Source: Bolinopsis microptera
Taxonomy: Eukaryota; Ctenophora; Tentaculata; Lobata; Bolinopsidae
Assembly: GCF_026151205.1 (NCBI RefSeq)
Contig: NC_087074.1
Span: 17,332,712-17,396,711 of the forward strand
Reading direction: 5' to 3'
Length of the DNA: 64,000 nucleotides
A program made the translations under genes and the position numbers. The notes below the pieces were generated by a model. The model worked only from the letters and a program-made list of their open reading frames with translations. It made no database searches and was not told where the DNA came from. Numbering within the stretch: position 1 is the stretch's first letter; each line of letters starts with the position of its first letter. Positions 4,737-64,000 of the stretch are shown here, one piece after another.

Positions 4737-32686
<27,950 letters not shown>

Positions 32687-36345: not shown

Positions 36346-37865
36346 TTGTCATACGTTGTATGACCCGCCGCGCACGAGTGCGCGGCTCCACCTCTACCTC
36401 ATACCTACTCCTAGTGAAACAACCGTGGGTGTCACGACGTGATACAATTGAATATCTGGAATTAATTAATAAGAAAACATGTGAGGATGCTGCCAATATC
36501 GAGTTATACTTATGGCTTAGATGAATTAGAACCAAATATGGCGAATTGGACCATCCCTAGCTCTAGTGGAAAAATCGACCTAATAATAACTCAATAATAT
36601 AACTAATATAACACTTGGAGGACTCCGACGCGCCGCGCAAACTATCATTCTTGCTTCTCATCGAACGGCGCCAGCTTTTCTATATTCTTTATAGTCGCGC
36701 GCGCATCCAATAATGCTTCTCGCAACCGCAGATGCAGATCGGCGAGATGCGAAGGATTGACATCGTGAATCAACTACATTCTATCCTCCCCACTGGCACA
36801 TATATATGTTGTATGACTGTAAAGGTACATTTTAACGACATTTGAAGTCAAGGCGTTGTTTTACTGACAGTTGTGGCTGACTAACAATATATATGTATAT
36901 ATATTAGATTAGATGATAAGAATAAGATGACATTAATTGACGATGTCAATTCATGGCAGCTCGGCGCGGCACAGTAGCGCATCTCGCCGATCTAGCCAGA
37001 TCGCTGTGAGAAGCCTCATTGAGTGCACGGCGCGGCAAAGTAACGCATCGCGCTACAAATAAGACCCTAACTAAACAGTATGCATTTAGTCTGATATTTG
37101 TTCCGTTTCTATATTATATTATTATTAAAACTCTAAGATTGCGCTCCTACTAAATCGCTCGCCTGCAAATTTTAAAAAAATTTTTGTTGAAAGGCCCTTT
37201 GGGCATGAAAGTGATCTGGATCGGTGTATTTTTGGACGCTGATTCCGAATCACCCCCCATGACGTAGGGTTAAAATTCTTTCCTTGGAGAGTTATGGGAA
37301 TGGGCAAAAAACCGTTTTGGTCACGTGACAAGCTAGTAAAATACGAATTCGATTGTTTAGGGCCCGGGTTAGGGTTAGGGTTGTGGTAAGGGTTATGGTT
37401 AGCTTCGGGGTTATGGTTAGGGTTAGGGTTCACCTAACCATGTGCTTTCGCGCCACTGCGGGCGCACTTGTTTCACAAGTCAAGGCGGGTGCGCGCTACT
37501 GCAAGCGCAAGGGCTCTGGATAGAGCAAGGGTTAGTATAGGGTTGGGATTAGGGTTTATGTAAAACCGTTTTGTACGGCCGCTGCAAAACCATAAAAACC
37601 AAAGTCACGTGAAATTTTTGGGCGAGCGAATTAGTAAAAGCCCTAAGATTGACGGTTGACAACTAAATTTGATGCAAAACGGCTTTAAAACGAGATTGAC
37701 GGATGTTACTCGTCTAAATTTCTTCGAAGTAGCGCGCCCCCCTTTATTCTAGCCCGATGGCACGTTGTTTCATGTGGTGACCCTCACTGTCGCTTCACTA
37801 TAGAGCTTCGACGATACAGGGGGAGCTGCGCACTCGTGCGCGGCGGGTCATACAACGTATGACAA
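36346..37865. mobile_element. Non-autonomous TIR DNA element
   Basis: The 38-base arm at 36346-36383 (TTGTCATACGTTGTATGACC onward) is repeated exactly in inverted orientation at 37828-37865. The 1.5-kb interior is unlike its surroundings: CpG-rich, with TTAGGG-like runs at about 37366-37430 and a nested inverted pair AGATCGGCGAGATGCG (about 36738) with its inverse (about 36977). It encodes no transposase, so it would need one in trans. No clear target-site duplication is visible, so true ends may extend beyond the perfect arms. A second inverted pair, TTCTTCGAAGTAGCGCG (about 37721) and its inverse (about 37968), crosses the right end. Confidence 0.65.
37366..37430. repeat. Degenerate TTAGGG repeats
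   Basis: GGGTTAGGGTTAGGGTT followed by GGTTATGGTTAG variants, with related units near 37529-37555. They lie inside the TIR element, which suggests the element carries them. Confidence 0.6.
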
Positions 37866-38264
37866 ATGGCACGAGCTACAAAGTAGCGCGCGCCGGGCCA
37901 GATCATTAACAATGGTCAAAATCGAGAGTACAACATCTATTATACCTGAGGTACTATAATAGCTATATACGCGCTACTTCGAAGAAATCAAAAGAACTTA
38001 AATATTCATCCTGTTTAAAATGTTCATTTATAACGATTGCATGCTTTTCCTTTGATACAGTGAAGCAGAGCATTACGATCCCCTCAAAAGGAAATCTTTT
38101 ACGATCTCCTTACGATCTCCTTCGAAGCAAAGCAAAAATGATGTTCGCACGGCGCGTTGAAGCGGCGACGTTCTCCAATGTTATTCTTAAACTTGATTGA
38201 CAGCTTTAGCGTTAATGTGGCTGATCCTGCTATGTGTCATGTTGGTTCAACAATTGCAAATTTA

Positions 38265-38312
38265 AGTTTATATTTCTAGTTTATATATATATATAAACTA
38301 GAAATATAAACT
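38265..38312. repeat. Perfect 48-bp palindrome
   Basis: Left arm AGTTTATATTTCTAGTTTAT plus ATAT (38265-38288) is followed directly by its exact reverse complement (38289-38312). It ends exactly where the first 536-bp monomer starts, suggesting a boundary or an insertion scar. Confidence 0.9.
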
Positions 38313-38848
38313 GACGTGTCCCAGTAGCCAATCATAATATATGTATTTCTACCGGTGGCACATACTGGATGGCGGTAGATGAGTACACTACTCTCTCAAG
38401 CATCTCGAGTCTCTCGGTGATCCTGCCTCCACACCACACTCAGTCTGGACTCCCTTCCGGCCGACCGAACTATTTTCCTAATATCTCCTAATATAACTTT
38501 GATCGAACTGGCCTAAATTCATGATGCACTATAAACTTGATTTGCGACAGAAATTTTAGACAATTTATCTGCTTACGTGTAATTTCAAACTCTTATCAGT
38601 TACCATGTCTTTTATCTAATTTTTATCAGCAGATTTATAAATCTGCTGTTCATTTGTAGTTATTACCTTTCTAGTTATGAGTAAATTTTTGCCTTCCATC
38701 AATTGAGTGCAGCTTTCAGTTTCAAAATTTTCAGTTTATTCAGATTTTTCGTTTTCAATATTGCAAATTTTTAATAAATCATGTTCAGATTATGGTGATA
38801 ATGGATGTAAAGGTACTTCAACCGAATTAACAATCCAACCGTGTGTAT
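38313..38848 (+). repeat. 536-bp tandem monomer, copy 1
   Basis: Begins GACGTGTCCCAGTAGCCAAT and ends at GTGTGTAT before copy 2. It contains a 22-base perfect palindrome at 38628-38649 (CAGCAGATTTA and its inverse). By eye it is identical to copy 2. Confidence 0.9.
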
Positions 38849-39384
38849 GACGTGTCCCAGTAGCCAATCATAATATATGTATTTCTACCGGTGGCACATA
38901 CTGGATGGCGGTAGATGAGTACACTACTCTCTCAAGCATCTCGAGTCTCTCGGTGATCCTGCCTCCACACCACACTCAGTCTGGACTCCCTTCCGGCCGA
39001 CCGAACTATTTTCCTAATATCTCCTAATATAACTTTGATCGAACTGGCCTAAATTCATGATGCACTATAAACTTGATTTGCGACAGAAATTTTAGACAAT
39101 TTATCTGCTTACGTGTAATTTCAAACTCTTATCAGTTACCATGTCTTTTATCTAATTTTTATCAGCAGATTTATAAATCTGCTGTTCATTTGTAGTTATT
39201 ACCTTTCTAGTTATGAGTAAATTTTTGCCTTCCATCAATTGAGTGCAGCTTTCAGTTTCAAAATTTTCAGTTTATTCAGATTTTTCGTTTTCAATATTGC
39301 AAATTTTTAATAAATCATGTTCAGATTATGGTGATAATGGATGTAAAGGTACTTCAACCGAATTAACAATCCAACCGTGTGTAT
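38849..39384 (+). repeat. 536-bp tandem monomer, copy 2
   Basis: Same sequence and length as copy 1. A third partial copy begins at 39385 and is lost after about 24 bases in an AT dinucleotide run (39408-39429). Its place just upstream of ORF1 resembles monomeric promoter arrays of mouse L1 5' UTRs. It might also be a separate tandem repeat the LINE landed beside, or an assembly duplication. Confidence 0.9.
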
Positions 39385-39936
39385 GACGTGTCCCAGTAGC
39401 CAATCATAATATATATATATATATATATAACTCTAAAACTCTGGTCACAAGAGCAACTGCCTAAACGTGCAGAAGTGAAAACAAATACATAAAATACTAG
39501 CAATCCTTTAAATTCGCAATAAATAAGTTCGTTCAATGTCATTATATAATTCTTAAAACCGCGTATATATGTGACCGGTAAATAATTTAATTGGTCTATA
39601 GACTACTGTATAAAATTCTCAATATAAACTTTTTAACAATAATAAATTAATTAAAAACACACAACAACCTTTGGTGTGTAAGAATGATTAAACAGTCTCA
39701 TTTTGACACAAAATATCTTCATAATATTATAGTATATGCTATAATATTAGAACTGTTAAGTTGAGTTCAGGTAACAGAATTTAACTGCAATAGAACCTCT
39801 GCTGTGTTATCCACTGTTGAGATGTAGCCATATTTTCGTCTGGTCTAACATTGACCCCGGCTCATGAAATATATGCTTCGTCCGGTCTAACATTGAACCC
39901 GGCTCACTAATCATAGGGATGGTGTAGTTATGGTAG
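39385..39936 (+). other. LINE leader upstream of ORF1
   Basis: A partial third monomer, an AT microsatellite (39408-39429), then AT-rich sequence. TCCGGTCTAACATTGA occurs near 39878 with a related TGGTCTAACATTGA near 39841. An ATG at 39930 is out of frame with ORF1 by one base and stops after five codons. Confidence 0.5.
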
Positions 39937-42093
39937 TTGGAATATAATCAACTGTTTAAAGTTTTATCTCTATTCGAAGGAATTCTTCTGCATCAAGATG
40001 GATCTTGTGAGCCTATTGTTGTAGACAGTGATGTAACACTCCCAAAGATTGACAGTTCACACAGGGACAAGACAAAATGTCCATGCAATAAGTCAATATC
40101 GTCATGGAAGATTGACTGTGTAAAGTGCAAGCAATATTGGCACATAGACTGTCTAACTATGAACGGACTCAATCAGAAAAACGTCAACAGCATGACCAAT
40201 TGGCACTGCCCCTTTTGTTTGGTTTTACCAATTCCCACACTCGAAACTGCTGCAGATGTGTGTTATGTGTGTAGGAACACTCTGACACTTCAAAAATCTA
40301 ACAGTCAGTGTGAGACAGCTATTGCCACAGAGAAGCTTAATACCATCACAGCTTTTGGTGAAAAGCTTGGCAAAGTTGACTTTGACAGTCTAAACGACAG
40401 CATTGCCGCCATCCAGAACCTTGACCTCCATATCAAGCACCTACTGGTTAGTGACAAGAACACCGCTCCAGCATGGGTTGAAATTATGGAAGGAGATCTG
40501 AAGCAGCTGAAAACTTCAGTTGACTCCGGACTCGGAAAGGTTTCTGAGACTGATAGTGGCCTAACAGAACAGATTAGAGTGTTGAACAAGCAACTGCAGG
40601 ACTTTTCTATTCCTCAAGTAAGTGCTCAATCTTCATCCAAGACCAAAGATCTCATGGAAAAAATAGAGAAGAATCTCCATGAGCTAAATTCCAAGCAGTC
40701 TCTGGAGACGAATCAGGAGCTAACAGCCATCAGACAGTCTTTGAACACTCTTGAGCAAAATTCTTTGGCTTCTTCTGACCATTTAAATGCCCAACTTACC
40801 AATTCTTCACTTGCCCCTGGCCCAGACCTAACAGCTAATGAGCATCTCAAATCAAGAGAAGAACCAGTTGTAGGCGCTATAGAAGAGTTTATCACCACAG
40901 AAGAGCAGGATCTTCTCCTCCTTGCCTGTCAATCACTTGACGAGGATTTTGTTGTGGAAGGAGCTCGTGCTGTGTATTCTCTGGGAGAACCATACAAGTA
41001 TAATGGCTCCAAGTCACCCAATGGTCAGCTAGAGTCAACCAGCTTCTCTAAACTGATGGACAAAATCAATGGGGCATTCTGTAGTGGTGAGAAACCGAAG
41101 ATCAATAGTCTGCTGATCAACCGCTTCAAAGAGGATGGCTCCCTACCAAAACATTCGGATGATGAAGCCACCATCCACCCCGAATCCGAAATTTTCACTG
41201 TGTCCATCGGAGGCCAGTGCAACATCAAATTCTTTGACAAGAAGACGGATGATATAGTCCTTGACCACCCATGTGTTCCAAGATCCATGTATCGCATGAC
41301 ACGAAGTAGCCAAGAGTATTACAGCCACTGTATCATGGATGGGGCAATAACTGGTGGGGTCAGATACAGCCTAACTTTTCGTTCAGTTAGCTTCAGGAAC
41401 AAGAACTCTACGTGCATCATAGGAGACAGTCATACAGGGGGGCTTAAGTTTGGGTCAGATGCCAGGAAATCGTTTGGACAATGGTTCCCTGGGAGGCAAT
41501 ATTTTGCACCAGTGGTTGACCAGATTGACCCATATGTCACATGTGGTTATCGTAACGTTGTTTTGATGTGTGCGATTAATGATCTTAAAAAACCTGAGAT
41601 CAAGAATACAGCTGATATTAAACGAAATGTATTTATTCCCTTTATTAAAAAGATTGAGAAAATTCATGCTATTAACCCTAAGGCACATGTATATGTTTGT
41701 CCAGCCCTGCCTACAAAGCTTGCTGAACTGAATAGAAAAGTTGTTTGCTTTAACCGCCTTATTCTGACAGAGCTGATCCCTTCAAATTTTGGTGTGACTT
41801 ACGTCGATGGGTTCGGTGGGTTTTGTGATGATGCTGGGCTTCTTAGCCAACAGTTCTCCAGAAACATCGGCCGAGACCAGCGACCAGATTATCTCCACCT
41901 TAACTGGAGGGGTACAGCTAAACTAGGCACTTTGATTCGTAACACAGTGCTTCTTAGAATGAATGGAGGAGTTGATAGAAGGAAAAGGAGAACAGACGAG
42001 GTTGATGGACGCTCATATCGGAACGTGTTGAGTGGGACGGGTTCTACTACTGCTGCTGAGTCTCGACACCAGGATGGTTACCAGCCATTCTGA
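39937..42093 (+). CDS. LINE ORF1: PHD, AlkB-like dioxygenase and SGNH esterase
   Basis: 718 codons from just after a TAG. Domains in order: PHD-type zinc finger, C4HC3 (Cys48, 50, 61, 64, His69, Cys72, 91, 94); predicted coiled-coil/linker about 140-290; AlkB-type 2-oxoglutarate/Fe(II) dioxygenase about 330-485, with NSLLINRF at 390-397, His406-x-Asp408, distal His464 and the family RxxxxxR motif (Arg476, Arg482); SGNH esterase about 490-675 with GDS (Ser498), Asn548 and the DxxH motif Asp651/His654. All catalytic residues expected for both enzymes are present. AlkB enzymes oxidatively remove methyl groups from nucleic acids; esterase ORF1 domains are known in CR1-type LINEs but their role is unclear. 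The first in-frame AUG is residue 75, inside the PHD finger, so initiation is unresolved. The basic tail (RRKRR, about 681-685) could bind RNA or act as a nuclear signal. Confidence 0.9.
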   Translation: MEYNQLFKVLSLFEGILLHQDGSCEPIVVDSDVTLPKIDSSHRDKTKCPCNKSISSWKIDCVKCKQYWHIDCLTMNGLNQKNVNSMTNWHCPFCLVLPIPTLETAADVCYVCRNTLTLQKSNSQCETAIATEKLNTITAFGEKLGKVDFDSLNDSIAAIQNLDLHIKHLLVSDKNTAPAWVEIMEGDLKQLKTSVDSGLGKVSETDSGLTEQIRVLNKQLQDFSIPQVSAQSSSKTKDLMEKIEKNLHELNSKQSLETNQELTAIRQSLNTLEQNSLASSDHLNAQLTNSSLAPGPDLTANEHLKSREEPVVGAIEEFITTEEQDLLLLACQSLDEDFVVEGARAVYSLGEPYKYNGSKSPNGQLESTSFSKLMDKINGAFCSGEKPKINSLLINRFKEDGSLPKHSDDEATIHPESEIFTVSIGGQCNIKFFDKKTDDIVLDHPCVPRSMYRMTRSSQEYYSHCIMDGAITGGVRYSLTFRSVSFRNKNSTCIIGDSHTGGLKFGSDARKSFGQWFPGRQYFAPVVDQIDPYVTCGYRNVVLMCAINDLKKPEIKNTADIKRNVFIPFIKKIEKIHAINPKAHVYVCPALPTKLAELNRKVVCFNRLILTELIPSNFGVTYVDGFGGFCDDAGLLSQQFSRNIGRDQRPDYLHLNWRGTAKLGTLIRNTVLLRMNGGVDRRKRRTDEVDGRSYRNVLSGTGSTTAAESRHQDGYQPF

Positions 42094-42182
42094 CTCCCCT
42101 GAGTAAAGAGGTATGCCTAGTCTGTGCGAAGTTCATTAACGTAGGACAATTCATTGTTGAATGCTGTGAATGCGACTGCCCA
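42060..42182 (+). CDS. ORF2 N-terminal extension: second PHD finger, no AUG
   Basis: The ORF2 frame is open from 42060, after a TGA at 42057-42059, and overlaps the last 34 bases of ORF1 in the -1 frame. It encodes the first half of a C4HC3 finger: Cys codons at 42114, 42123, 42162 and 42171. The second half lies past the first ATG: His at 42186, Cys at 42195, 42243 and 42252. The complete finger therefore requires translation starting before the AUG at 42183, by frameshift, reinitiation at a non-AUG codon or splicing. No classical slippery heptamer is visible in the overlap. Confidence 0.7.
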
Positions 42183-45100
42183 ATGCACCATAAGTGCTAT
42201 ACCAAATCCATTAACAATGACACATTATCTGACGATTTTTACTGTCCCAAGTGCGTACATTTAGCAGTTATTCGTTACAATCCATTTCGACTTGCATGCA
42301 CTAATTTAAGTGATATTGAAAGTAGTGAAGTGGATGACACTATCATAAAAGTAGATCAAATACTAAATAACTGCGTATCGTACAATGTCAAGGAATTCAA
42401 CAAAGCACTAGATAATCAAATGAATGAATTTTCATCGCTTCTCTTCCAAAACATCGACGGCAATAAGTCAAATTTCGACACTTTCGCTATTGAATCCCAT
42501 AGGCTCACCAAGAAATTCTCGATCATAGCCTTAGCGGAAACAAATGAAGGTCCTGAATCCAGCAGTTTGTATCAATTAACTGGATACAACAGTTTCTACC
42601 AAAACACAATACCAGATAAAAAAAAGGGCACTGGAGTGGCTCTCTATGTTTGTGACACTCTTAGTGCCAGAGTAAACGGCAATGTATCCCATATCACTGA
42701 ACATTTAGAAACTCTTTTTGTGGCCGTAAGTAGTACAACTTCCCCAGTAACAGTTGGTGTAATGTACCGTCCTCCAAGTGGTAATGTCAATGTTGCACTA
42801 TCTGAACTCTCTGACATCCTTGACAGTCTCCCCAAGTGTAGTTACCTAGCGGGTGATTTTAACATTGATTTACACGATAAGAATAGCACAATCGTACAAC
42901 GCTATGAAGAAATACTATTAAGTAAAGGATTTTTCCCCCTAATTTCGTTAGCAACACATGAGAAACCAGGCTGTAAAGCATCCTGTATTGATAACATAAT
43001 AACTAACGACGTAGAGAGTATAGTAGCTTCTGGAATACTGACTGACCGTATATCACACCACTCACCCATCTTCCAAATCTTTGATAGAAACTTGGACTCT
43101 AGCAGAATTGACCTGAAATACAAACAGTATTATGATTACAACAAACCGAATGTAAAAGCTTTTTTACAGACTCTGGAACATGATCTCAATAATAATGTTA
43201 TCGACAATTTTACAACATTTCACGACATATTTAAGGACTGTATAGATAGAACTTGTAAGTTAGAAACCCCTAAATGCTCTAAAAGAACAGCACTGAACAA
43301 CCCATGGATTACACCAGACCTTGTGGGCAAAATTTCATATCAGCACGAACTTTACGATAAATGGGTAAAGGTCAGAAAAGTTAAATGTAAATTTGGGGAA
43401 ATTGAAAATAAAGGGGGGACATGCCAATGCCCAATATGTTGCTCAAAACGTGACAAGTATAAAAAATACAGTGACTGCAGGCGGAAGGTCAAAAAAGATC
43501 GCCGCAATGCTCAATCTAAGTTCTATGGTGGAAAATTTGCAGAGTTGCACGGAAACAGTAAAAAGACGTGGGAATTAATTAACCAAATACGGGGTAAACG
43601 AAAACGACAAACCAAACCTCTATTTACTATCAATAATGAAAAAATTACTAATCGTAGGGTAATAGCTAATGAGTTTAATAAGTACTTTGTCTCCCTAGCT
43701 TCTAATCTTAACGAGGCATACAATGAAATCGGCGAACTAGTAATTAATGGCATCCCCAGTATCTATGACTACCTACCAAAATCCAACACGACCAGTATTT
43801 ACATGCATGATTGTACAATCGATGAAGTATGTAAAATAATATCAGAATTGAAAAATGGCAAATCGTCTGATATCCCAATACATGTTGTAAAAGCGTCATC
43901 CAGAATTATCGCCCCCCTATTATCTGTACTATACAATGAATGTTTGAAGGAGGGAATATTCCCGGACGATTTAAAGATTGGCAGGATCAGTCCCATATAC
44001 AAGAAAGAAAATGAAGAATTACTTGAAAACTATAGACCAGTCTCTACCTTAGCCGTATTTGGTAAGTTATTCGAGAAAATTATATATAGTAGGCTATACA
44101 GCTTTTTCCAGTCACAAAATATGATCTATGAAAATCAGTATGGATTCCGTAAAAATCACTCTACAAGTCATGCCCTGAATTTCTCAGTGAATTATATAGA
44201 ATCATGCCTTAATAAAAAGCAGCACGTGCTCGGAATATTCATTGATCTAAGCAAAGCATTCGATACCATCTCAGCTGACAAATTACTGAGTAAGCTAGAT
44301 AATTACGGAATTCGAGGCAATGCCAACAAACTCATTGCTAGTTATCTCTCTAATAGATATCAATACGTCTCGGTCCTAGGAGAAGAGTCTGACAAGCTTC
44401 CAGTTCTCTTTGGAGTACCCCAGGGATCTTGTCTTGGTCCGTTACTATTTATTATTTATATCAACGACCTATATAGGGCAACTGAACTAGGCAAGTTCAT
44501 TCTATTTGCTGACGATACAAATATATTTGTCGCGGATGAATGTAAGATAAAGTTATATGAACGAGCAAACCAAATTCTCAAACTGGTACAACTGTATATG
44601 AAATGTAATCTCCTGCATATTAACATTAAGAAATGCTGTTACATTCACTTTAAACCAACGAATAGAAAAAGCAAGGTAGAACATAATGAAGAAGAACACG
44701 TACTTACTCTAAACAATGTAGTAATAAAGCAAGTCAAAAAGGTGAAGTTTCTTGGTGTTATTATTGATGATCAGCTTAAATGGGATGCTCAAATACGGTC
44801 GCTCAACACAAAGCTGAAATGTGAAAGTGGGAAAATTTGTAGAATACGGCACATTATTCCAGAAAAACTCTACAAAGAACTGTACTACACACTATTTGAA
44901 TCACACTTGCGATTTGGGATATCAGTATGGGGTGGCCTTAGTAACAACAGGCTTGAACCAATATTTATCACTCAGAAGAAATGTGTTAGAATACTATTTG
45001 GTAACCGAGAGGCGTACTTAGAAAAGTTTAGAACTTGTGCTAGAACACGAAGTAAAGACAAGCAAAAATTAGGAAGCGACTTCTATGAAAAACAGCACAC

Positions 45101-45458
45101 AAAACCCCTATTTAAGAAAAATGGTTTACTAACCATACACAGTTTGTTCAAACACACATGTTTATTGGAAATGTTCAAAATCAATAAATTAGAATCCCCA
45201 GTCCCACTCCTAAATCTATTTCACAGATCATCAAGACGTGCTGATCGATTCATCACTCCAACCCCATCCACCTCCTTCATATATCAATCGACAAAAATGT
45301 GGAACGATTGTAGGAACACTGCTAGCAATATCAACTTCTCTACATCAACGAACCTTGTGAAATCCACAATAAAAAAGGAGTTACTCGGCATGCAGTCCAG
45401 GTACGACGAAATAGATTGGTGTGAACTGAACTTCGATTCCAACGAACTGAAATTCTAA
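42183..45458 (+). CDS. LINE ORF2: APE endonuclease and reverse transcriptase
   Basis: 1091 codons from the first ATG, uninterrupted. After the half PHD finger comes an APE-like endonuclease (about 85-300): Asn90, Glu119, YRPP, GDFN with Asp225 and Asn227, and the SHHSP motif with His293. It nicks target DNA for priming. A basic linker holds a Cys cluster (Cys402, 414, 416, 419, 420). The reverse transcriptase spans about 600-800 with FIDLSKAFD (Asp688), GVPQGS (about 744) and FADD (Asp777, Asp778). It is followed by a thumb/C-terminal region with basic and Cys residues but no RNase H that I can see. Together these are the complete enzymes for target-primed reverse transcription. The frame and length suggest a potentially active copy. 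Confidence 0.95.
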   Translation: MHHKCYTKSINNDTLSDDFYCPKCVHLAVIRYNPFRLACTNLSDIESSEVDDTIIKVDQILNNCVSYNVKEFNKALDNQMNEFSSLLFQNIDGNKSNFDTFAIESHRLTKKFSIIALAETNEGPESSSLYQLTGYNSFYQNTIPDKKKGTGVALYVCDTLSARVNGNVSHITEHLETLFVAVSSTTSPVTVGVMYRPPSGNVNVALSELSDILDSLPKCSYLAGDFNIDLHDKNSTIVQRYEEILLSKGFFPLISLATHEKPGCKASCIDNIITNDVESIVASGILTDRISHHSPIFQIFDRNLDSSRIDLKYKQYYDYNKPNVKAFLQTLEHDLNNNVIDNFTTFHDIFKDCIDRTCKLETPKCSKRTALNNPWITPDLVGKISYQHELYDKWVKVRKVKCKFGEIENKGGTCQCPICCSKRDKYKKYSDCRRKVKKDRRNAQSKFYGGKFAELHGNSKKTWELINQIRGKRKRQTKPLFTINNEKITNRRVIANEFNKYFVSLASNLNEAYNEIGELVINGIPSIYDYLPKSNTTSIYMHDCTIDEVCKIISELKNGKSSDIPIHVVKASSRIIAPLLSVLYNECLKEGIFPDDLKIGRISPIYKKENEELLENYRPVSTLAVFGKLFEKIIYSRLYSFFQSQNMIYENQYGFRKNHSTSHALNFSVNYIESCLNKKQHVLGIFIDLSKAFDTISADKLLSKLDNYGIRGNANKLIASYLSNRYQYVSVLGEESDKLPVLFGVPQGSCLGPLLFIIYINDLYRATELGKFILFADDTNIFVADECKIKLYERANQILKLVQLYMKCNLLHINIKKCCYIHFKPTNRKSKVEHNEEEHVLTLNNVVIKQVKKVKFLGVIIDDQLKWDAQIRSLNTKLKCESGKICRIRHIIPEKLYKELYYTLFESHLRFGISVWGGLSNNRLEPIFITQKKCVRILFGNREAYLEKFRTCARTRSKDKQKLGSDFYEKQHTKPLFKKNGLLTIHSLFKHTCLLEMFKINKLESPVPLLNLFHRSSRRADRFITPTPSTSFIYQSTKMWNDCRNTASNINFSTSTNLVKSTIKKELLGMQSRYDEIDWCELNFDSNELKF

Positions 45459-46595
45459 TGTCTACTCAATGAAGATATGCTGAGCGCTAAAGCCGATTGA
45501 AATGTTAATGTCTAAAGTATAAAATTTCGGCGGTCACGCCGCGCATTTTGCGCGCTGTGCCGCTATTTTTGGCCCATCTTATCAGATATTATTTACAATG
45601 TACTCGCACAGTACATGCAGGGCATGCCTCAAGATCATATTAGTGTAGGAATCATTATGTTTTCAACAATTCATTATATGTCGAATTCAGCAGTGGGTCC
45701 TCTCTTCGTCCGGTTTGTGTGTTTGTCGCCTGTCTGGACTCTCGTAGTCATGTAATTTTTAATTTTTAATTTCTAATTTGTTATTTTAATTTTAATTTTT
45801 CAATTTTCTAAATGTGTGTTCTGCTCCGGGACTCGATTACCGTTTCGGCTTTCTTGAGACTGTAAATTTTGAAAGCCAACTATGCGGGGCGCCTGCCCAC
45901 CGGCACTGAAGAGTGATCAAAGAATTAACTAAAATTTCCTAATATAACGATTGAATATAGAGTTGTTTAACCGGCGCGGCCATGGGTGTGTGGCCTAGCT
46001 TTGGCTGCACACCTATGACTGCGCTGTTGCTGGTGGACAGGCGCAGTTTTTGTTGTGCAGTAGTGTTGCAAGAGAATAAAACCAACTTATTATGTACTAA
46101 ATGGAATCAAGAATATTATTGACTATATTTGATAACGATGAATTGTAAATTTCGATCAATTTATATTTTTCGGTCTCCAATTATTGAACTGCGGAAGCTG
46201 GTTGCCTCAACAATGTTGACTACGCATGGTATGACTGAATTGTAAACACGTGATAATTGAACGAAAAATAAATGATGAACATGATTCAAAAACTGTAAAC
46301 CACCAAATGAATTATCGCTTAAATTTAAATAAGTATTTAAACAAAAACCATCATGTGCCGTTAAGCAGCAGGGCGCGGCTCATCTGGGCCACAGCAAATC
46401 GGCGAAAATGGGTTCGAAAAAGCCACTATTGGCACTCGAGTCCTTGATCTTTCCGATGGTTCACTGGGGCTTTTGAGCTGCCGTCCTTCAGCTTCTGTAA
46501 ACTGAAATTACTACCAATCCAAGTTGAGGCAATCAGCCGACGCGCGGCTTTTGTGGTTATATATGATATGTTTAATCTGTAATAAAGATCAAAAT
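45459..46595. other. LINE 3' region and flank
   Basis: 3' UTR of the CR1-like element, with a GC-rich patch near 45530-45570 (CGCGCATTTTGCGCGC), TTTAATTTT-type repeats at about 45755-45800, and an AATAAA at 46075-46080. No gene is seen in 46086-46595. Confidence 0.45.
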
Positions 46596-47387
46596 TCAAA
46601 TTTGTTTCTCTCTCTCTCCCTTTGTTATTTCCAGTGCTAGATCAAAGAACTCACGAAGTCTGCTCCATGATATCAACATTGAGTTCCCACCATAGCCTTG
46701 GTTTTTGATGTTGTGGAAAGGGTGTCTTTCAAGAAGCTCACTCATTTTGTTCCTTTTATCTGCTTGTACATCAGGACAGTCGGTAAGCAGGTGAAGTGAA
46801 TTTTGAGCCCCTCGCCTACAATCACACAGTGGAGAATCAAATTTACTATTTTTGAAGCGGTGTAGAAATTCATTCATTATGTTGTTTGGATAGAACAAAC
46901 TTAGAAACAAGGTTTCAAGTTGCCTTGATGTTTTGGGCGGAAACTTGAGCTTTGTGGCGCTCACTGTAGGTGCCTCTGTATACCCTTCCAGCTGGTACTG
47001 GCTGTTTATGGACGATTGCCAAAGCTGTTCACTGTAATGTTTCATCACTGATTTACTGTAGCTGCATCCTTTTATTGATAGACTGGTGAGTTTTTCTAGA
47101 TCATGGTTATTTATGATTTTTAGATCCTCATTAGTGAAGTGTTCAGGAAGTATTGAAGATTTCCACAATAGAAACTGAAATACATCTTTTACCTTTCCAG
47201 TTAGTGCGCTGTAACTGCCTGATTTCATTTGGTCATCAATAAGGTGTTTCAGTGGATCCTCTTTATTCGGGAATATATTCAGTTTAAGGATGTGCTTCAC
47301 TGAGTTCACTTTGTTTGATATGTTGAGTGGCAACACACCAAGTATCATTTCAGCTGTAGTTAGTCTTACATTGAACACTGCACCCAA
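46596..47387 (-). pseudogene. LINE C-terminal remnant
   Basis: The open frame (about 264 codons) resembles the region after the reverse transcriptase of non-LTR elements. It starts with an RLTTAEMILGVLPL motif, as in the conserved TTP...PL region of such polyproteins, and near its end has a CDC...H....C zinc knuckle (CDCRRGAQNSLHLLTDC). A stop lies a few codons upstream of KAALGAVF and nothing upstream encodes a polymerase, so it is a 5'-truncated or decayed copy from a family different from the neighbouring LINE. It is in opposite orientation to that LINE. Alternatively a domesticated fragment; I see no splice evidence for that. Confidence 0.7.
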
Positions 47388-47847
47388 AGCTGCTTTTATA
47401 GTCTAGTTTAGTTAAATACAACTCATTGTATAACTTATAAATTATATTACAATACCATTGCTTTCGTTAGTTTTATATCAAAATGATGTCAATGCAGTTT
47501 TGCATGGCTGGAATGAAACGATTGAATAAGAAATAATAAAATAAAAAACCATATATTTTTAAACTACAATTTGGTATTTGATTGTCAACTCGTAGCAAAC
47601 TACTGCGGCTCAAGTCGTCTGTCTAGTATAGCTCAACAAATCAGTAACTAATTTTAGAAACTTGTAATTATCGAGCGAAGAGTTATTTAACATCAGGATC
47701 ACCCAAACATTTTGGCTTCTACCTACAGTTTCCATATTAAAATATACAAAACAATTGTTTTTGAAAATATTTGAACATTTTGAAGATGGAGAAGAAAAAA
47801 TGTCCAGTAGTTTGTTTTCAGAATGTACTGATTTACAGAATGTATCT
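47388..47847. other. PH gene 3' UTR and spacer
   Basis: Lies between the LINE remnant and the last exon of the minus-strand PH gene. AT-rich; no clear polyadenylation signal or other gene. Confidence 0.4.
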
Positions 47848-54093: not shown

Positions 54094-56469
54094 GTAAGTT
54101 ACCCTTATACTATCTGTACTATATTACACTTTTTAAACTAATAATCTCATATCTAATCCAACTTGGAGGGGTTGTTTGAAACATATAAGTTATAGGAAAT
54201 GTTTATTAAGCAGTTATCCAACTTGATGTTCCCCCCGGCCCCTTTAACACAAATGCTAGTAATTACACTGTCTGCTCACCCCCCCGGCCCCTTTAACACG
54301 AATGTTAGTAATCATACTGTCTGCTCACACTATTCTTCTTCAGCTAACAGGCCGACTGGAGGATCTGCAGAAAGAAGAGGCAAAGCTGCGGTCCCTGATC
54401 TCAGATATACAGGAGAGAGTAGAGTGGCTGATGAGTGGGAGCAGGGAGAAGTTTGGGGTGGTCACTGAGCGGAGGGTGGTGCTGGTCATGGCCAGCTATC
54501 ATATTAGTAATGTTACTTTTGGCAGCTTTTGTAGTGCTGTTGCGGGATTGGTCAGGGAGCAGATTATTGAGATTGACTCTTATAACGTTATCAGGTATAA
54601 TGATAGTCTTGAAATTGGTATGATTATGGTTTCAGCACTAAAAACAGCACTCTTTTATATTTTCTAAAGCGGTCTAAAGAACCAATATCATTTGAAATTA
54701 GTAACATAACCCCAAAAATTTAACATGATGATTTCAGAGCCAGCGATACTATATCAGAATGTTGGAATGAGTTAAGAGACATCACTCGAGACAATCTGAG
54801 ACAAAGTCTGGCTTTTGTCCTGTCTCAACAACCAACAATTCTTTTTAATAAAGACACGCTTTGTGAGGCTGTTAAATCTGCGGTAAGATTACGGCATATA
54901 TTACTGAGATTTCATCAGCAATTTGTAGAACTTTAGCACAGGTGACACACAATGTTGTGCTTATGATGTAATGTAGAAGAGTGTAACGTGAGGACAACTT
55001 AGCAAACTGAGCTGAGGGTGTTTTGCAGCACAACAAGTAGGGTTTGCTTTCTGATCGGTATGAGCTTTAAGCTATCTGCAAGTGACTGTTAGTTATATTG
55101 CGTAAGCCAGCTTTTAACTTTTATTCAGACCCCCTCCCCCATTCTCCCTCCATAACTTAGCAACTCCTTTTGTGTCAGAATTACAAGCTTTCCCACTCCT
55201 CCTTGACTGGCTTGCGCAATAAGTGAACGATACTTTAGCCATTTTACATGTGTATAACGGCCTGAGCAAGGCTTTAAAAGCCCTAGAATTAAAGCAGTTA
55301 CCCTTTTCAACGCTCATTTAACGGCTATAATACTAAACATTGGAGAATTACGAGTGGACTGAGCACAATCTTATTTCTCGATCCAAGTTTATATTATCTT
55401 GCCTTAACAACTTCACATTGTTATTCTTCTTAACTCGATGCTAATTTAACCTAAATATTTCTCTAGATAAATGCAGCAGACGTGGACGGTGTTTATCTGT
55501 TGGTACAGGGATCTCCTGACCAAAATACCCACGAACATCTCACTAGACTGGTAAATGGATTTAGTTTCAATTATTCATTAATAAGTATTAAAATTAAATT
55601 ATGATTAAATGGTTTTCCATTTTACCGTACCACGACAGACTAAATGAACTTCATTTTAGAGTTTTATTTTGTTACTTACTGTTAATTTAGACACACTTCG
55701 TACGGCATCTTTTTATAGCCAAACAAGCACATGAAAGACCTTATTGACATTTTGTATGTATGTACCGCTTGACAGGTACCGTGCATTATTTTTCTTGTTT
55801 GTTTGTTTGTTTATAGAACCCGTCCCCAATCTCGTATTGGAAAATGACTAAACTCAGGTCTGAGTGTGAATACGGGTGGTACCTGCAAGAGTGTTCATTA
55901 AGCATTTAGAGTTCTGTAAAACTGCAGTTACAATTGTGCTAGAGTATTTTTAGTATATACGATTGGTATCAGAAATATATCCCTACATGCTTCCAAAATT
56001 TGTAAAGCCGTAGTACATACATATCACATTACACCAGAGCCTACACAGTGCAATCTCCTCCAGTCTATCTGCGCCGCGTATATTTGTATAAGCACACGGC
56101 GCAGACTGGAAAAAACCACACTCTGCAAGTTCAATCCAGTGCAATGCTACATATGTACGTACTACGGCTTCATCTCCAACTTTCTGCACAATGTACTGGA
56201 ATGTTTTGAGGAAAAGAAAGAACAAAAAAAGTGATATATATAAATAAAATCAGCGATTCAATGTTAGCCTTGGGACAGTAACTTTAATTCCCTGGTTTCT
56301 AAAATCAGCTTTTTAAAAAAAAATAATAATAAAGTATGTAACGTCGATACCAAACCGATTATTAAGCGATAATAACTGAGTAGTTGATTCCTGGGTTGCA
56401 GAGTCATTCAGATGTTCCAGTCTTCGAATGTGGTTCTTGTTCAGTTCTTGACCAGAAGTGTCTAATGAA
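53929..56469 (+). CDS. VWA3-like protein, partial gene
   Basis: Exons 53929-54093, 54344-54594, 54738-54882, 55467-55550 and 56402-56469 form one consistent frame with GT-AG borders. Reading order: LTRDHILKKIGFKAAAGYVG, then a helix leading to VEWLMSGSREKFGVV, then a von Willebrand A-type fold (RRVVLVMASYHISN, SYNVIR, LAFVLSQQPT, DGVYLLVQGSPDQ). The WLxSGSRxxFG lead-in and DGVYL..G.PD strand resemble VWA3A/VWA3B, cilium-associated proteins. The MIDAS DxSxS is replaced by MASYH, so metal binding through that motif seems lost. The gene is incomplete: the start is upstream or unassigned, and the rest lies beyond the satellite. The exon at 55817 is an alternative end. Confidence 0.65.
54236..54333. 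repeat. 49-bp direct repeat, two copies
   Basis: CGGCCCCTTTAACAC plus about 34 further bases occur at 54236 and again at 54285 with three or four differences, in the VWA intron just before exon b. Confidence 0.85.
54344..54594 (+). CDS. VWA3-like exon b
   Basis: CTTCTTCAG to GTATAATG. Encodes LTGRLEDLQKEEAKLRSLI (coiled), VEWLMSGSREKFG and the first VWA strand and helix (RRVVLVMASYHISN). Confidence 0.75.
54738..54882 (+). CDS. VWA3-like exon c
   Basis: GATTTCAG to GTAAGATT, phases match. ISECWNELRDITRDNLRQSL then AFVLSQQPTILFNKDTL. Confidence 0.75.
55467..55550 (+). CDS. VWA3-like exon d
   Basis: 28 codons between TTTCTCTAG and GTAAATGG. INAADVDGVYLLVQGSPDQ fits the VWA strand that normally reads TDG. 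Confidence 0.75.
55817..55909 (+). CDS. Possible alternative terminal exon of the VWA3-like gene
   Basis: After GTTTATAG, phase 0 matches exon d. It reads NPSPISYWKMTKLRSECEYG then ends at TAG, 31 codons in all. This would truncate the protein. A donor-like CTCAG/GTCTGA inside gives another option, but it leads to a stop in the exon at 56402. Confidence 0.4.
   Translation, partial: NPSPISYWKMTKLRSECEYGWYLQECSLSI
56402..56469 (+). CDS. VWA3-like exon e
   Basis: GGGTTGCAG to GTAAGTCA. In phase 0 from exon d it reads SHSDVPVFECGSCSVLDQKC and ends in phase 2. Cys-rich. Its partner exon must lie beyond the satellite. Confidence 0.5.
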
Positions 56470-56681
56470 GTAAGTCAGACAAGCAAACTCTTCCTTAAAT
56501 GCTAATATAAGTCGTCTCAATCCCAAAAATTATGAATGATGACCCAGTGTAAAAGTGCAGAAATCGGTCGAAAATAACAAAGACTAAAAACAGTTAAAAA
56601 GTGAAAGGATTCAAACACAAGGAAAATTAATAACTTAGAGCGTAATAAGTAATATCTCCAAACGGAGTTTTCTGAGAGGAT

Positions 56682-59600
56682 GAGAGGTTCTTTAATTAGA
56701 GCTAATGATTAAATGAGACCCACTAAAGGTACTAAATTAACCGGACTGCTAGCAAGGAATCGAGAGTGGGAATAAAACTAAAAGCGGAATAAATTTTGAG
56801 ATAATGAAACAGAAACTGAAAGCTAAAATATATATCGTTCTAGAATGCCTCCGCAAACTATTGCTCCTTTGTAATGTGCACGTGTGAGAGGTTCTTTAAT
56901 TAGAGCTAATGATTAAATGAGACCCACTAAAGGTACTAAATTAACCGGACTGCTAGCAAGGAATCGAGAGTGGGAATAAAACTAAAAGCGGAATAAATTT
57001 TGAGATAATGAAACAGAAACTGAAAGCTAAAATATATACCGTTCTAGAATGCCTCCGCAAACTATTGCTCCTTTGTAATGTGCACGTGTGAGAGGTTCTT
57101 TAATTAGAGCTAATGATTAAATGAGACCCACTAAAGGTACTAAATTAACCGGACTGCTAGCAAGGAATCGAGAGTGGGAATAAAACTAAAAGCGGAATAA
57201 ATTTTGAGATAATGAAACAGAAACTGAAAGCTAAAATATATACCGTTCTAGAATGCCTCCGCAAACTATTGCTCCTTTGTAATGTGCACGTGTTAGTAAG
57301 TGTAGTAAAAAGATAAAAATAATAAAGCTATACAAATGAACGGAGCGGTGAAAATCTGAGAGGGTGAGAGGTTCTTTAATTAGAGCTAATGATTAAATGA
57401 GACCCACTTTCTGAGAGGGTGAGAGGTTCTTTAATTAGAGCTAATGATTAAATGAGACCCACTAAAGGTACTAAATTAACCGGACTGCTAGCAAGGAATC
57501 GAGAGTGGGAATAAAACTAAAAGCGGAATAAATTTTGAGATAATGAAACAGAAACTGAAAGCTAAAATATATACCGTTCTAGAATGCCTCCGCAAACTAT
57601 TGCTCCTTTGTAATGTGCACGTGTGAGAGGTTCTTTAATTAGAGCTAATGATTAAATGAGACCCACTAAAGGTACTAAATTAACCGGACTGCTAGCAAGG
57701 AATCGAGAGTGGGAATAAAACTAAAAGCGGAATAAATTTTGAGATAATGAAACAGAAACTGAAAGCTAAAATATATACCGTTCTAGAATGCCTCCGCAAA
57801 CTATTGCTCCTTTGTAATGTGCACGTGTTAGTAAGTGTAGTAAAAAGATAAAAATAATAAAGCTATACAAATGAACGGAGCGGTGAAAATCTGAGAGGGT
57901 GAGAGGTTCTTTAATTAGAGCTAATGATTAAATGAGACCCACTTTCTGAGAGGGTGAGAGGTTCTTTAATTAGAGCTAATGATTAAATGAGACCCACTAA
58001 AGGTACTAAATTAACCGGACTGCTAGCAAGGAATCGAGAGTGGGAATAAAACTAAAAGCGGAATAAATTTTGAGATAATGAAACAGAAACTGAAAGCTAA
58101 AATATATACCGTTCTAGAATGCCTCCGCAAACTATTGCTCCTTTGTAATGTGCACGTGTTAGTAAGTGTAGTAAAAAGATAAAAATAATAAAGCTATACA
58201 AATGAACGGAACGGTGAAAATCTGAGAGGGTGAGAGGTTCTTTAATTAGAGCTAATGATTAAATGAGACCCACTTTCTGAGAGGGTGAGAGGTTCTTTAA
58301 TTAGAGCTAATGATTAAATGAGACCCACTAAAGGTACTAAATTAACCGGACTGCTAGCAAGGAATCGAGAGTGGGAATAAAACTAAAAGCGGAATAAATT
58401 TTGAGATAATGAAACAGAAACTGAAAGCTAAAATATATACCGTTCTAGAATGCCTCCGCAAACTATTGCTCCTTTGTAATGTGCACGTGTGAGAGGTTCT
58501 TTAATTAGAGCTAATGATTAAATGAGACCCACTAAAGGTACTAAATTAACCGGACTGCTAGCAAGGAATCGAGAGTGGGAATAAAACTAAAAGCGGAATA
58601 AATTTTGAGATAATGAAACAGAAACTGAAAGCTAAAATATATACCGTTCTAGAATGCCTCCGCAAACTATTGCTCCTTTGTAATGTGCACGTGTGAGAGG
58701 TTCTTTAATTAGAGCTAATGATTAAATGAGACCCACTAAAGGTACTAAATTAACCGGACTGCTAGCAAGGAATCGAGAGTGGGAATAAAACTAAAAGCGG
58801 AATAAATTTTGAGATAATGAAACAGAAACTGAAAGCTAAAATATATACCGTTCTAGAATGCCTCCGCAAACTATTGCTCCTTTGTAATGTGCACGTGTTA
58901 GTAAGTGTAGTAAAAAGATAAAAATAATAAAGCTATACAAATGAACGGAGCGGTGAAAATCTGAGAGGGTGAGAGGTTCTTTAATTAGAGCTAATGATTA
59001 AATGAGACCCACTTTCTGAGAGGGTGAGAGGTTCTTTAATTAGAGCTAATGATTAAATGAGACCCACTAAAGGTACTAAATTAACCGGACTGCTAGCAAG
59101 GAATCGAGAGTGGGAATAAAACTAAAAGCGGAATAAATTTTGAGATAATGAAACAGAAACTGAAAGCTAAAATATATACCGTTCTAGAATGCCTCCGCAA
59201 ACTATTGCTCCTTTGTAATGTGCACGTGTTAGTAAGTGTAGTAAAAAGATAAAAATAATAAAGCTATACAAATGAACGGAACGGTGAAAATCTGAGAGGG
59301 TGAGAGGTTCTTTAATTAGAGCTAATGATTAAATGAGACCCACTTTCTGAGAGGGTGAGAGGTTCTTTAATTAGAGCTAATGATTAAATGAGACCCACTA
59401 AAGGTACTAAATTAACCGGACTGCTAGCAAGGAATCGAGAGTGGGAATAAAACTAAAAGCGGAATAAATTTTGAGATAATGAAACAGAAACTGAAAGCTA
59501 AAATATATACCGTTCTAGAATGCCTCCGCAAACTATTGCTCCTTTGTAATGTGCACGTGTGAGAGGTTCTTTAATTAGAGCTAATGATTAAATGAGACCC

Positions 59601-62600
59601 ACTAAAGGTACTAAATTAACCGGACTGCTAGCAAGGAATCGAGAGTGGGAATAAAACTAAAAGCGGAATAAATTTTGAGATAATGAAACAGAAACTGAAA
59701 GCTAAAATATATACCGTTCTAGAATGCCTCCGCAAACTATTGCTCCTTTGTAATGTGCACGTGTGAGAGGTTCTTTAATTAGAGCTAATGATTAAATGAG
59801 ACCCACTAAAGGTACTAAATTAACCGGACTGCTAGCAAGGAATCGAGAGTGGGAATAAAACTAAAAGCGGAATAAATTTTGAGATAATGAAACAGAAACT
59901 GAAAGCTAAAATATATACCGTTCTAGAATGCCTCCGCAAACTATTGCTCCTTTGTAATGTGCACGTGTTAGTAAGTGTAGTAAAAAGATAAAAATAATAA
60001 AGCTATACAAATGAACGGAGCGGTGAAAATCTGAGAGGGTGAGAGGTTCTTTAATTAGAGCTAATGATTAAATGAGACCCACTTTCTGAGAGGGTGAGAG
60101 GTTCTTTAATTAGAGCTAATGATTAAATGAGACCCACTAAAGGTACTAAATTAACCGGACTGCTAGCAAGGAATCGAGAGTGGGAATAAAACTAAAAGCG
60201 GAATAAATTTTGAGATAATGAAACAGAAACTGAAAGCTAAAATATATACCGTTCTAGAATGCCTCCGCAAACTATTGCTCCTTTGTAATGTGCACGTGTG
60301 AGAGGTTCTTTAATTAGAGCTAATGATTAAATGAGACCCACTAAAGGTACTAAATTAACCGGACTGCTAGCAAGGAATCGAGAGTGGGAATAAAACTAAA
60401 AGCGGAATAAATTTTGAGATAATGAAACAGAAACTGAAAGCTAAAATATATACCGTTCTAGAATGCCTCCGCAAACTATTGCTCCTTTGTAATGTGCACG
60501 TGTGAGAGGTTCTTTAATTAGAGCTAATGATTAAATGAGACCCACTAAAGGTACTAAATTAACCGGACTGCTAGCAAGGAATCGAGAGTGGGAATAAAAC
60601 TAAAAGCGGAATAAATTTTGAGATAATGAAACAGAAACTGAAAGCTAAAATATATACCGTTCTAGAATGCCTCCGCAAACTATTGCTCCTTTGTAATGTG
60701 CACGTGTGAGAGGTTCTTTAATTAGAGCTAATGATTAAATGAGACCCACTAAAGGTACTAAATTAACCGGACTGCTAGCAAGGAATCGAGAGTGGGAATA
60801 AAACTAAAAGCGGAATAAATTTTGAGATAATGAAACAGAAACTGAAAGCTAAAATATATACCGTTCTAGAATGCCTCCGCAAACTATTGCTCCTTTGTAA
60901 TGTGCACGTGTTAGTAAGTGTAGTAAAAAGATAAAAATAATAAAGCTATACAAATGAACGGAGCGGTGAAAATCTGAGAGGGTGAGAGGTTCTTTAATTA
61001 GAGCTAATGATTAAATGAGACCCACTTTCTGAGAGGGTGAGAGGTTCTTTAATTAGAGCTAATGATTAAATGAGACCCACTAAAGGTACTAAATTAACCG
61101 GACTGCTAGCAAGGAATCGAGAGTGGGAATAAAACTAAAAGCGGAATAAATTTTGAGATAATGAAACAGAAACTGAAAGCTAAAATATATACCGTTCTAG
61201 AATGCCTCCGCAAACTATTGCTCCTTTGTAATGTGCACGTGTTAGTAAGTGTAGTAAAAAGATAAAAATAATAAAGCTATACAAATGAACGGAACGGTGA
61301 AAATCTGAGAGGGTGAGAGGTTCTTTAATTAGAGCTAATGATTAAATGAGACCCACTTTCTGAGAGGGTGAGAGGTTCTTTAATTAGAGCTAATGATTAA
61401 ATGAGACCCACTAAAGGTACTAAATTAACCGGACTGCTAGCAAGGAATCGAGAGTGGGAATAAAACTAAAAGCGGAATAAATTTTGAGATAATGAAACAG
61501 AAACTGAAAGCTAAAATATATACCGTTCTAGAATGCCTCCGCAAACTATTGCTCCTTTGTAATGTGCACGTGTGAGAGGTTCTTTAATTAGAGCTAATGA
61601 TTAAATGAGACCCACTAAAGGTACTAAATTAACCGGACTGCTAGCAAGGAATCGAGAGTGGGAATAAAACTAAAAGCGGAATAAATTTTGAGATAATGAA
61701 ACAGAAACTGAAAGCTAAAATATATACCGTTCTAGAATGCCTCCGCAAACTATTGCTCCTTTGTAATGTGCACGTGTGAGAGGTTCTTTAATTAGAGCTA
61801 ATGATTAAATGAGACCCACTAAAGGTACTAAATTAACCGGACTGCTAGCAAGGAATCGAGAGTGGGAATAAAACTAAAAGCGGAATAAATTTTGAGATAA
61901 TGAAACAGAAACTGAAAGCTAAAATATATACCGTTCTAGAATGCCTCCGCAAACTATTGCTCCTTTGTAATGTGCACGTGTTAGTAAGTGTAGTAAAAAG
62001 ATAAAAATAATAAAGCTATACAAATGAACGGAGCGGTGAAAATCTGAGAGGGTGAGAGGTTCTTTAATTAGAGCTAATGATTAAATGAGACCCACTTTCT
62101 GAGAGGGTGAGAGGTTCTTTAATTAGAGCTAATGATTAAATGAGACCCACTAAAGGTACTAAATTAACCGGACTGCTAGCAAGGAATCGAGAGTGGGAAT
62201 AAAACTAAAAGCGGAATAAATTTTGAGATAATGAAACAGAAACTGAAAGCTAAAATATATACCGTTCTAGAATGCCTCCGCAAACTATTGCTCCTTTGTA
62301 ATGTGCACGTGTTAGTAAGTGTAGTAAAAAGATAAAAATAATAAAGCTATACAAATGAACGGAACGGTGAAAATCTGAGAGGGTGAGAGGTTCTTTAATT
62401 AGAGCTAATGATTAAATGAGACCCACTTTCTGAGAGGGTGAGAGGTTCTTTAATTAGAGCTAATGATTAAATGAGACCCACTAAAGGTACTAAATTAACC
62501 GGACTGCTAGCAAGGAATCGAGAGTGGGAATAAAACTAAAAGCGGAATAAATTTTGAGATAATGAAACAGAAACTGAAAGCTAAAATATATACCGTTCTA

Positions 62601-64000
62601 GAATGCCTCCGCAAACTATTGCTCCTTTGTAATGTGCACGTGTGAGAGGTTCTTTAATTAGAGCTAATGATTAAATGAGACCCACTAAAGGTACTAAATT
62701 AACCGGACTGCTAGCAAGGAATCGAGAGTGGGAATAAAACTAAAAGCGGAATAAATTTTGAGATAATGAAACAGAAACTGAAAGCTAAAATATATACCGT
62801 TCTAGAATGCCTCCGCAAACTATTGCTCCTTTGTAATGTGCACGTGTGAGAGGTTCTTTAATTAGAGCTAATGATTAAATGAGACCCACTAAAGGTACTA
62901 AATTAACCGGACTGCTAGCAAGGAATCGAGAGTGGGAATAAAACTAAAAGCGGAATAAATTTTGAGATAATGAAACAGAAACTGAAAGCTAAAATATATA
63001 CCGTTCTAGAATGCCTCCGCAAACTATTGCTCCTTTGTAATGTGCACGTGTGAGAGGTTCTTTAATTAGAGCTAATGATTAAATGAGACCCACTAAAGGT
63101 ACTAAATTAACCGGACTGCTAGCAAGGAATCGAGAGTGGGAATAAAACTAAAAGCGGAATAAATTTTGAGATAATGAAACAGAAACTGAAAGCTAAAATA
63201 TATACCGTTCTAGAATGCCTCCGCAAACTATTGCTCCTTTGTAATGTGCACGTGTTAGTAAGTGTAGTAAAAAGATAAAAATAATAAAGCTATACAAATG
63301 AACGGAGCGGTGAAAATCTGAGAGGGTGAGAGGTTCTTTAATTAGAGCTAATGATTAAATGAGACCCACTTTCTGAGAGGGTGAGAGGTTCTTTAATTAG
63401 AGCTAATGATTAAATGAGACCCACTTTCTGAGAGGGTGAGAGGTTCTTTAATTAGAGCTAATGATTAAATGAGACCCACTAAAGGTACTAAATTAACCGG
63501 ACTGCTAGCAAGGAATCGAGAGTGGGAATAAAACTAAAAGCGGAATAAATTTTGAGATAATGAAACAGAAACTGAAAGCTAAAATATATACCGTTCTAGA
63601 ATGCCTCCGCAAACTATTGCTCCTTTGTAATGTGCACGTGTTAGTAAGTGTAGTAAAAAGATAAAAATAATAAAGCTATACAAATGAACGGAGCGGTGAA
63701 AATCTGAGAGGGTGAGAGGTTCTTTAATTAGAGCTAATGATTAAATGAGACCCACTTTCTGAGAGGGTGAGAGGTTCTTTAATTAGAGCTAATGATTAAA
63801 TGAGACCCACTAAAGGTACTAAATTAACCGGACTGCTAGCAAGGAATCGAGAGTGGGAATAAAACTAAAAGCGGAATAAATTTTGAGATAATGAAACAGA
63901 AACTGAAAGCTAAAATATATACCGTTCTAGAATGCCTCCGCAAACTATTGCTCCTTTGTAATGTGCACGTGTTAGTAAGTGTAGTAAAAAGATAAAAATA
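56682..64000. repeat. 204-bp satellite with higher-order repeats
   Basis: Monomers of 204 bases start GAGAGGTTCTTTAATTAG and end TGTAATGTGCACGTGT, each with a CACGTG. Runs of one to four full monomers are separated by a linker of about 72 bases (starting TAGTAAGTGTAGTAAAAAGA) plus a 57-base truncated monomer that ends at ACCCACTTTCTGAGAGGG. Linkers come in two forms, GGAGCGG and GGAACGG. The order S-F-(A form)-S-F-F-F-(G form) repeats at a period of about 1074 bases (for example about 57956, 59030 and 60104). The array runs off the window end and has no long ORF. It appears to lie in a VWA-gene intron or at the gene's end. Confidence 0.97.

Follow-up and report, generated by a model that had tools for sequence, protein, structure and literature searches.

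Esterase-type ORF1 proteins, the products of the first open reading frame (ORF) of certain non-long-terminal-repeat (non-LTR) retrotransposons, are thought to self-associate by a coiled coil and to act on membranes by their esterase, and a structural RNA-binding domain was reported in none of those held in Repbase in 2013 (PMC3905857). In a 2014 survey of the Jockey superfamily, esterase ORF1s were described as lacking a PHD finger and as confined to two vertebrate subgroups (PMC4120745). A wider occurrence of the esterases has been reported, in CR1, RTEX and Penelope elements and in chordates, cnidarians and sponges (PMC3905857). Other ORF1s, in CR1/L2 lineages, carry a PHD finger N-terminally, and in L2 subgroup 5 a PHD finger probably opens ORF2 as well (PMC4120745). 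Here we describe an element in a 64,000-nucleotide window of the genome of the ctenophore Bolinopsis microptera (contig NC_087074.1, positions 17,332,712 to 17,396,711) that joins a PHD finger, an AlkB domain and an SGNH esterase in one ORF1. All coordinates count from the first nucleotide of this window, and all features of the element lie on its plus strand.

ORF1 (39937..42093) is a single stop-free frame of 718 codons with the order PHD finger, helical region, AlkB domain and SGNH esterase. The CR1/L2 lineages share the N-terminal finger but differ in that an oxygenase is listed for 0 of the 20 subgroups in Table 1 of the survey, and the words 'AlkB' and 'oxygenase' are absent from its available text (PMC4120745). 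A retrotransposon with a captured AlkB is known from Phalaenopsis orchids, where the domain is active in vitro as an eraser of N6-methyladenosine (m6A); in contrast to the element described here, that one is a plant Ty3/Gypsy LTR element, and its AlkB is a separate extra ORF, described as a homologue of RNA demethylases of plants (PMC9289625). The same predicted fold is seen, again in a replicating RNA element, in the AlkB domains of positive-strand RNA viruses (plant viruses, Picornavirales sp.), but these lie within viral polyproteins and work without reverse transcription. The best match to the ctenophore AlkB domain in BFVD was a 739-residue protein (E 1.0e-13), with several polyproteins ranking lower.

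The initial annotation, made from the DNA letters, had placed PHD, AlkB and esterase domains in this one frame, and every residue that it named was found where expected. The AlkB, or 2-oxoglutarate-Fe(II) dioxygenase, domain spans ORF1 residues 311-488 (40867..41400) and is identified by profile, alignment and predicted fold. It contains NSLLINRF from residue 390 (including N395), H406 and D408, H464, and R476 and R482; HxD, a distal His and RxxxxxR are the hallmarks of the family (PMC544882). Two possible refutations of the AlkB assignment had been named beforehand, the lack of a profile hit and the lack of an AlkB-type fold. A profile search matched residues 339-482 to Pfam PF13532 (2OG-FeII_Oxy_2) at 43.5 bits against a cut-off of 31.2 (E 5.6e-11), and structure prediction returned an AlkB-type fold, the double-stranded beta-helix. 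Among PHROG families, ORF1 matched 'alkylated DNA repair' at E 3.9e-8; a search of NCBIfam up to E 1 gave no oxygenase match. ORF1 scored 57.4 bits against a profile made from 32 further AlkB proteins and without ORF1 itself. For comparison, 2000 shuffled versions of the domain scored no higher than 4.6 bits, and the other frames of the window no higher than 4.8 bits (214 stop-to-stop frames of at least 60 amino acids, ORF1 counted among them).

Relatives of the domain were gathered from a genome scan, in which 99 of 517 pattern matches were confirmed and the best 80 of the 99 were retained, and from two overlapping scans of viral contigs, one with 3 of 8 pattern matches confirmed and the other with 6 of 78. 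H406, D408, E410, H464, R476 and R482 were invariant in all 33 aligned sequences, and likewise in a set of 36. Elsewhere, ORF1 has diverged far from these relatives, with 18-25% identity over the alignment and at most 36% over the best segments (best 80 of 99). It keeps 12 of the 17 well-filled columns that are fully conserved among the other 32 sequences, the five losses being a W (a gap here), P343A, Y397F, D401G and R428C. With gaps scored as misses, it agrees at 7 of 23 columns of 90-99% conservation and at 10 of 79 columns of 50-90%. As judged from the alignment, the domain is thus strongly drifted with its iron ligands and both arginines retained, which may be taken as indirect evidence of selection.

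This pattern bears on two alternatives. The AlkB domain could be a passenger, picked up along with RNA of the host or of a virus and without any role in retrotransposition. The element is known here from one copy, which has possible signs of decay, but even at the low identities just given the domain still has an open frame and a complete active site, and we therefore judge a neutral passenger distinctly unlikely. GC content at third codon positions was highest in the AlkB part (0.494), followed by the helical part (0.430), the PHD part (0.391), ORF2 (0.367) and the esterase core (0.352); as these stretches are short, the differences were not taken to prove a recent capture. Alternatively, the AlkB fold may replace the RNA recognition motif (RRM) as the RNA-binding part of the ORF1 protein (ORF1p), with catalysis incidental. 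Since esterase-type ORF1s have no RRMs (PMC3905857), an RNA-binding fold would be useful to them. A pure binder, however, need not keep the iron ligands, which together with both arginines are conserved here amid drift at most moderately conserved positions, and the domain is acidic; we regard such a binding module as equally improbable.

Comparisons with solved proteins in the PDB, by sequence and by structure, ranked ALKBH2 or ALKBH3 first, the alignment being a biased one, and ALKBH6 and ALKBH5 followed only 1-2 Z behind. The predicted AlkB fold would be nearest to ALKBH3/ALKBH2. Human ALKBH2 and ALKBH3 are about 21% identical to the ORF1 domain, which differs from them in having a shorter stretch before the conserved PR pair and in being fused to transposon domains. 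A single-sequence PDB search with the domain, up to E 10, contained neither ALKBH5 nor FTO. A ribosomal protein (E 1.1) and, along 32-33 residues, nine sequences of HIV-type proteases (E 0.06 to 1.6) also appeared in this search and were taken as chance matches.

These affinities are relevant to a third alternative, in which the domain takes m6A off the RNA of the element or of its host and so helps to escape surveillance, the role proposed for the AlkB of the orchid Ty3/Gypsy elements. METTL3, however, promotes L1 retrotransposition in human cells, and ALKBH5 suppresses it (PMC7873242). With repair enzymes as the nearest solved relatives, and ALKBH5 and FTO missing from the single-sequence search, this reading is less favoured, and we consider it rather unlikely. 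Nor does the HxDxE motif, with E410 present in all 33 aligned sequences, speak for it, since ALKBH2 shares this motif in the form HRDDE. Of the interpretation first offered for this locus, the fusion and the AlkB identity have held up in profile, alignment and predicted fold, and it appears plausible that the element repairs or edits its own RNA or cDNA; countering host RNA methylation, understood as m6A, seems less likely than the removal of base damage or of 1-methyladenine (m1A) and 3-methylcytosine (m3C).

The best explanation, which we advance tentatively and at somewhat below an even chance, is that the ORF1 AlkB domain demethylates m1A and m3C in element RNA or cDNA and so eases reverse transcription. 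ORF1p would assemble with the element RNA, perhaps at membranes through its esterase, as suggested for the zebrafish element ZfL2-1. The AlkB domain, using Fe(II), O2 and 2-oxoglutarate, would then strip methyl groups from the Watson-Crick faces of A and C in element RNA or single-stranded cDNA, where m1A and m3C may be either damage or marks, and demethylation would remove obstacles from the path of the ORF2 reverse transcriptase in the course of target-primed reverse transcription. This proposal follows from reports that m1A impedes the reverse transcriptase of an engineered R2 retroelement, and that most 3' tRNA halves were captured better after AlkB treatment, which had a modest effect on intact tRNAs (PMC12140624). 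Our computations gave the domain order, the open frame, the retained catalytic residues and an AlkB fold prediction nearest ALKBH3/ALKBH2; from these we infer that the domain may be catalytically active, that methylated element nucleic acid may be its substrate and that retrotransposition may benefit. It is more doubtful that the element represents a non-LTR lineage with its own remover of reverse-transcription roadblocks, an AlkB enzyme in the RNA-packaging protein that would couple target-primed reverse transcription with base repair or with epitranscriptomic erasure.

Several features weigh against a nucleic-acid role of the AlkB domain. The stretch at residues 338-343, before the conserved PR pair, is shortened; confidence in the AlkB model is low at residues 351-370; and the domain is acidic, with an isoelectric point (pI) of 4.99. 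As for esterase-type ORF1 proteins in general, ZfL2-1 ORF1p was dispensable in a HeLa assay (PMC3905857).

ORF2 (42060..45458, 1132 codons) is an open frame that overlaps ORF1 by 34 nucleotides in a different frame. It encodes a putative apurinic-endonuclease (APE)-type endonuclease (42378..43070), recognized by motifs and by matches below cut-off to Exo_endo_phos (E 6.7e-4) and Exo_endo_phos_2 (E 0.0028). GDFN and IDN are present, and SHH at 43053 (43053-43073) occupies the position of the motif that normally reads SDH. The reverse transcriptase (44001..44765) matched RVT_1 (E 4.1e-36), with FADD at 44505, and its best solved relative in a PDB search was LINE-1 ORF2p (E 1.7e-20). Taken together, the ORF1 frame and the overlapping ORF2 frame with its endonuclease and reverse transcriptase mark the element, on sequence grounds, as a two-ORF non-LTR retrotransposon, or long interspersed nuclear element (LINE), probably of the APE type.

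The PHD finger of ORF1 (40078..40218) has the complete C4HC3 ligand set recognized at the outset (C48, C50, C61, C64, H69, C72, C91 and C94), with profile scores below the cut-offs: the segment alone matched Pfam PHD_4 at E 0.0014 and PHD at E 0.0065, and the whole protein matched PHD at E 0.1. Beyond the finger, a further CxxC lies at residues 109-112. A second PHD finger, found by pattern, forms the N-terminus of ORF2 (residues 8-54, 42114..42254; Pfam PHD E 0.0025, 18.2 bits against a cut-off of 24). Each protein of the element therefore opens with a PHD finger, and an in-frame AUG precedes neither: the first in-frame Met of ORF1 is residue 75, within its finger, and the first Met of ORF2, at 42183, also falls within its finger. 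In-frame TAG stops at 39925 and 39934 stand immediately 5' of the ORF1 frame. Because the frame abuts these two stops and its first Met lies inside the PHD finger, the 'TTG start' assigned to it is mechanical and no guide to the true N-terminus. Slight decay of this copy could account for these features, as could initiation at codons other than AUG, splicing or reinitiation.

Fingers in both ORF1 and ORF2 would suit a chromatin-side enzyme, in which putative binding by the PHD finger puts ORF1p on a histone mark at the target site, where the AlkB domain would take methyl groups off target DNA or mend the primed single strand; one of the top matches is ALKBH2, whose structure was solved with duplex DNA. 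The PHD scores, however, fall below curated cut-offs, and shortening of the stretch before the PR pair affects this reading too. We think a chromatin-side role unlikely.

Between the PHD finger and the AlkB domain lies a helical, possibly coiled-coil region (residues 180-288, 40474..40800), delimited by a heptad test and by AlphaFold2 (AF2). Among five segments, only residues 180-225 stood out in the heptad test (32 of 5000 shuffles as good); residues 234-288 were negative (4848 of 5000), yet AF2 predicted one long helix there. The full-length AF2 model of ORF1 was of low quality overall, with a predicted local distance difference test score (pLDDT) of 54.9 and a predicted template-modelling score (pTM) of 0.44. 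For the esterase, only the order of strands and helices was used from this model; the two alternate, at low to moderate confidence. The SGNH/GDSL esterase domain (residues 489-675, 41401..41961) has S498, G519, N548, D651 and H654 in the expected order, and its catalytic Ser, Gly, Asn and Asp-x-x-His were assigned by motif and spacing, with a profile score below cut-off. Pfam Lipase_GDSL_2 matched the domain alone at E 9.2e-5 (23.4 bits against a cut-off of 32.9) and the whole of ORF1 at E 0.0019 (19.2 bits, also below). A PDB sequence search up to E 10 returned no esterase, ZfL2-1 likewise being absent, and the best plasmid match to the esterase by tblastn had an E of only 3.

The arrangement resembles that of ZfL2-1, in whose esterase-type (type IV) ORF1 a coiled coil precedes an SGNH esterase that bears Ser, Gly, Asn and Asp-x-x-His, upstream of an APE endonuclease and reverse transcriptase. 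The esterase domain is basic in both, with a pI of 10.8 in ZfL2-1 (PMC3905857) and 9.64 here. The two differ in that the paper on ZfL2-1 mentions no AlkB or oxygenase, and probably in one of the transposon-specific residues of its esterase, His191 and Ser228 (PMC3905857): as placed by motif spacing, His191 would correspond to Met544 here.

A tblastn search of the 64-kb window with ORF1 and ORF2 (E up to 1) found only self matches, and scans of viral contigs confirmed no relatives among the pattern matches to ORF1 (0 of 24), ORF2 (0 of 1) or the reverse transcriptase region (0 of 15). Upstream of ORF1, a 536-bp tandem direct repeat (38312..39423, plus strand) comprises two complete units and the beginning of another, 99.8% identical over 571 nucleotides; possibly, these units are 5' untranslated region or promoter monomers. 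A perfect 48-nucleotide AT-rich palindrome (38265-38312) reaches the start of this repeat, and a degenerate, telomere-like GGGTTA array (37366-37430) lies about 0.9 kb 5' of it. Repeat comparison also revealed a pair of 39-nucleotide direct repeats, 85% identical, close 5' of ORF1 (39835..39915, plus strand). When 37001-39936 was compared with 45459-47000 for a target-site duplication, two exact 12-nucleotide and ten exact 11-nucleotide matches were found, none of them at plausible element ends. Searches for RNA families at gathering score and for tRNAs gave no hits.

The 3' side of the element is adjoined by a minus-strand frame of 268 codons (46596-47402) without a Pfam match up to E 1; our impression is that it is a fragment of another mobile element. 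Farther away, an uninterrupted 508-codon POU-homeobox frame, itself a sign of animal DNA, occupies 31160-32686, and its POU domain includes LNLRAGARYGQSYISR, which looks unusual. Frames of a tandem array at 25639-27101 read EHGGTLLGIF / RTWRNTASYI repeats. At 56001-64000, GC skew (+0.12-0.22) and AT skew (+0.19-0.21) persist over 8 kb and exceed those of the rest of the window combined.

Some invertebrate proteins annotated as Fe2OG dioxygenases may be transposon-derived. A literature search on AlkB and oxoglutarate oxygenases in LINEs and retroelements, covering few subscription journals, gave no AlkB domain in a LINE among the matches listed. The parts of this element are known, and their combination in a LINE appears to be undescribed in the literature searched. 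With AlkB capture already known in an LTR retrotransposon and in RNA viruses, a LINE would be a third kind of RNA-replicating element to carry the domain, whose active site is intact here. Should the family prove conserved, the element would be a natural fusion of a nucleic-acid demethylase with a retrotransposon packaging protein, and would offer a candidate nucleic-acid-facing part for the esterase-type ORF1s, which were reported without a structural RNA-binding domain. It would also allow a test of whether LINE reverse transcription is held back by methylated bases or by alkylation damage.
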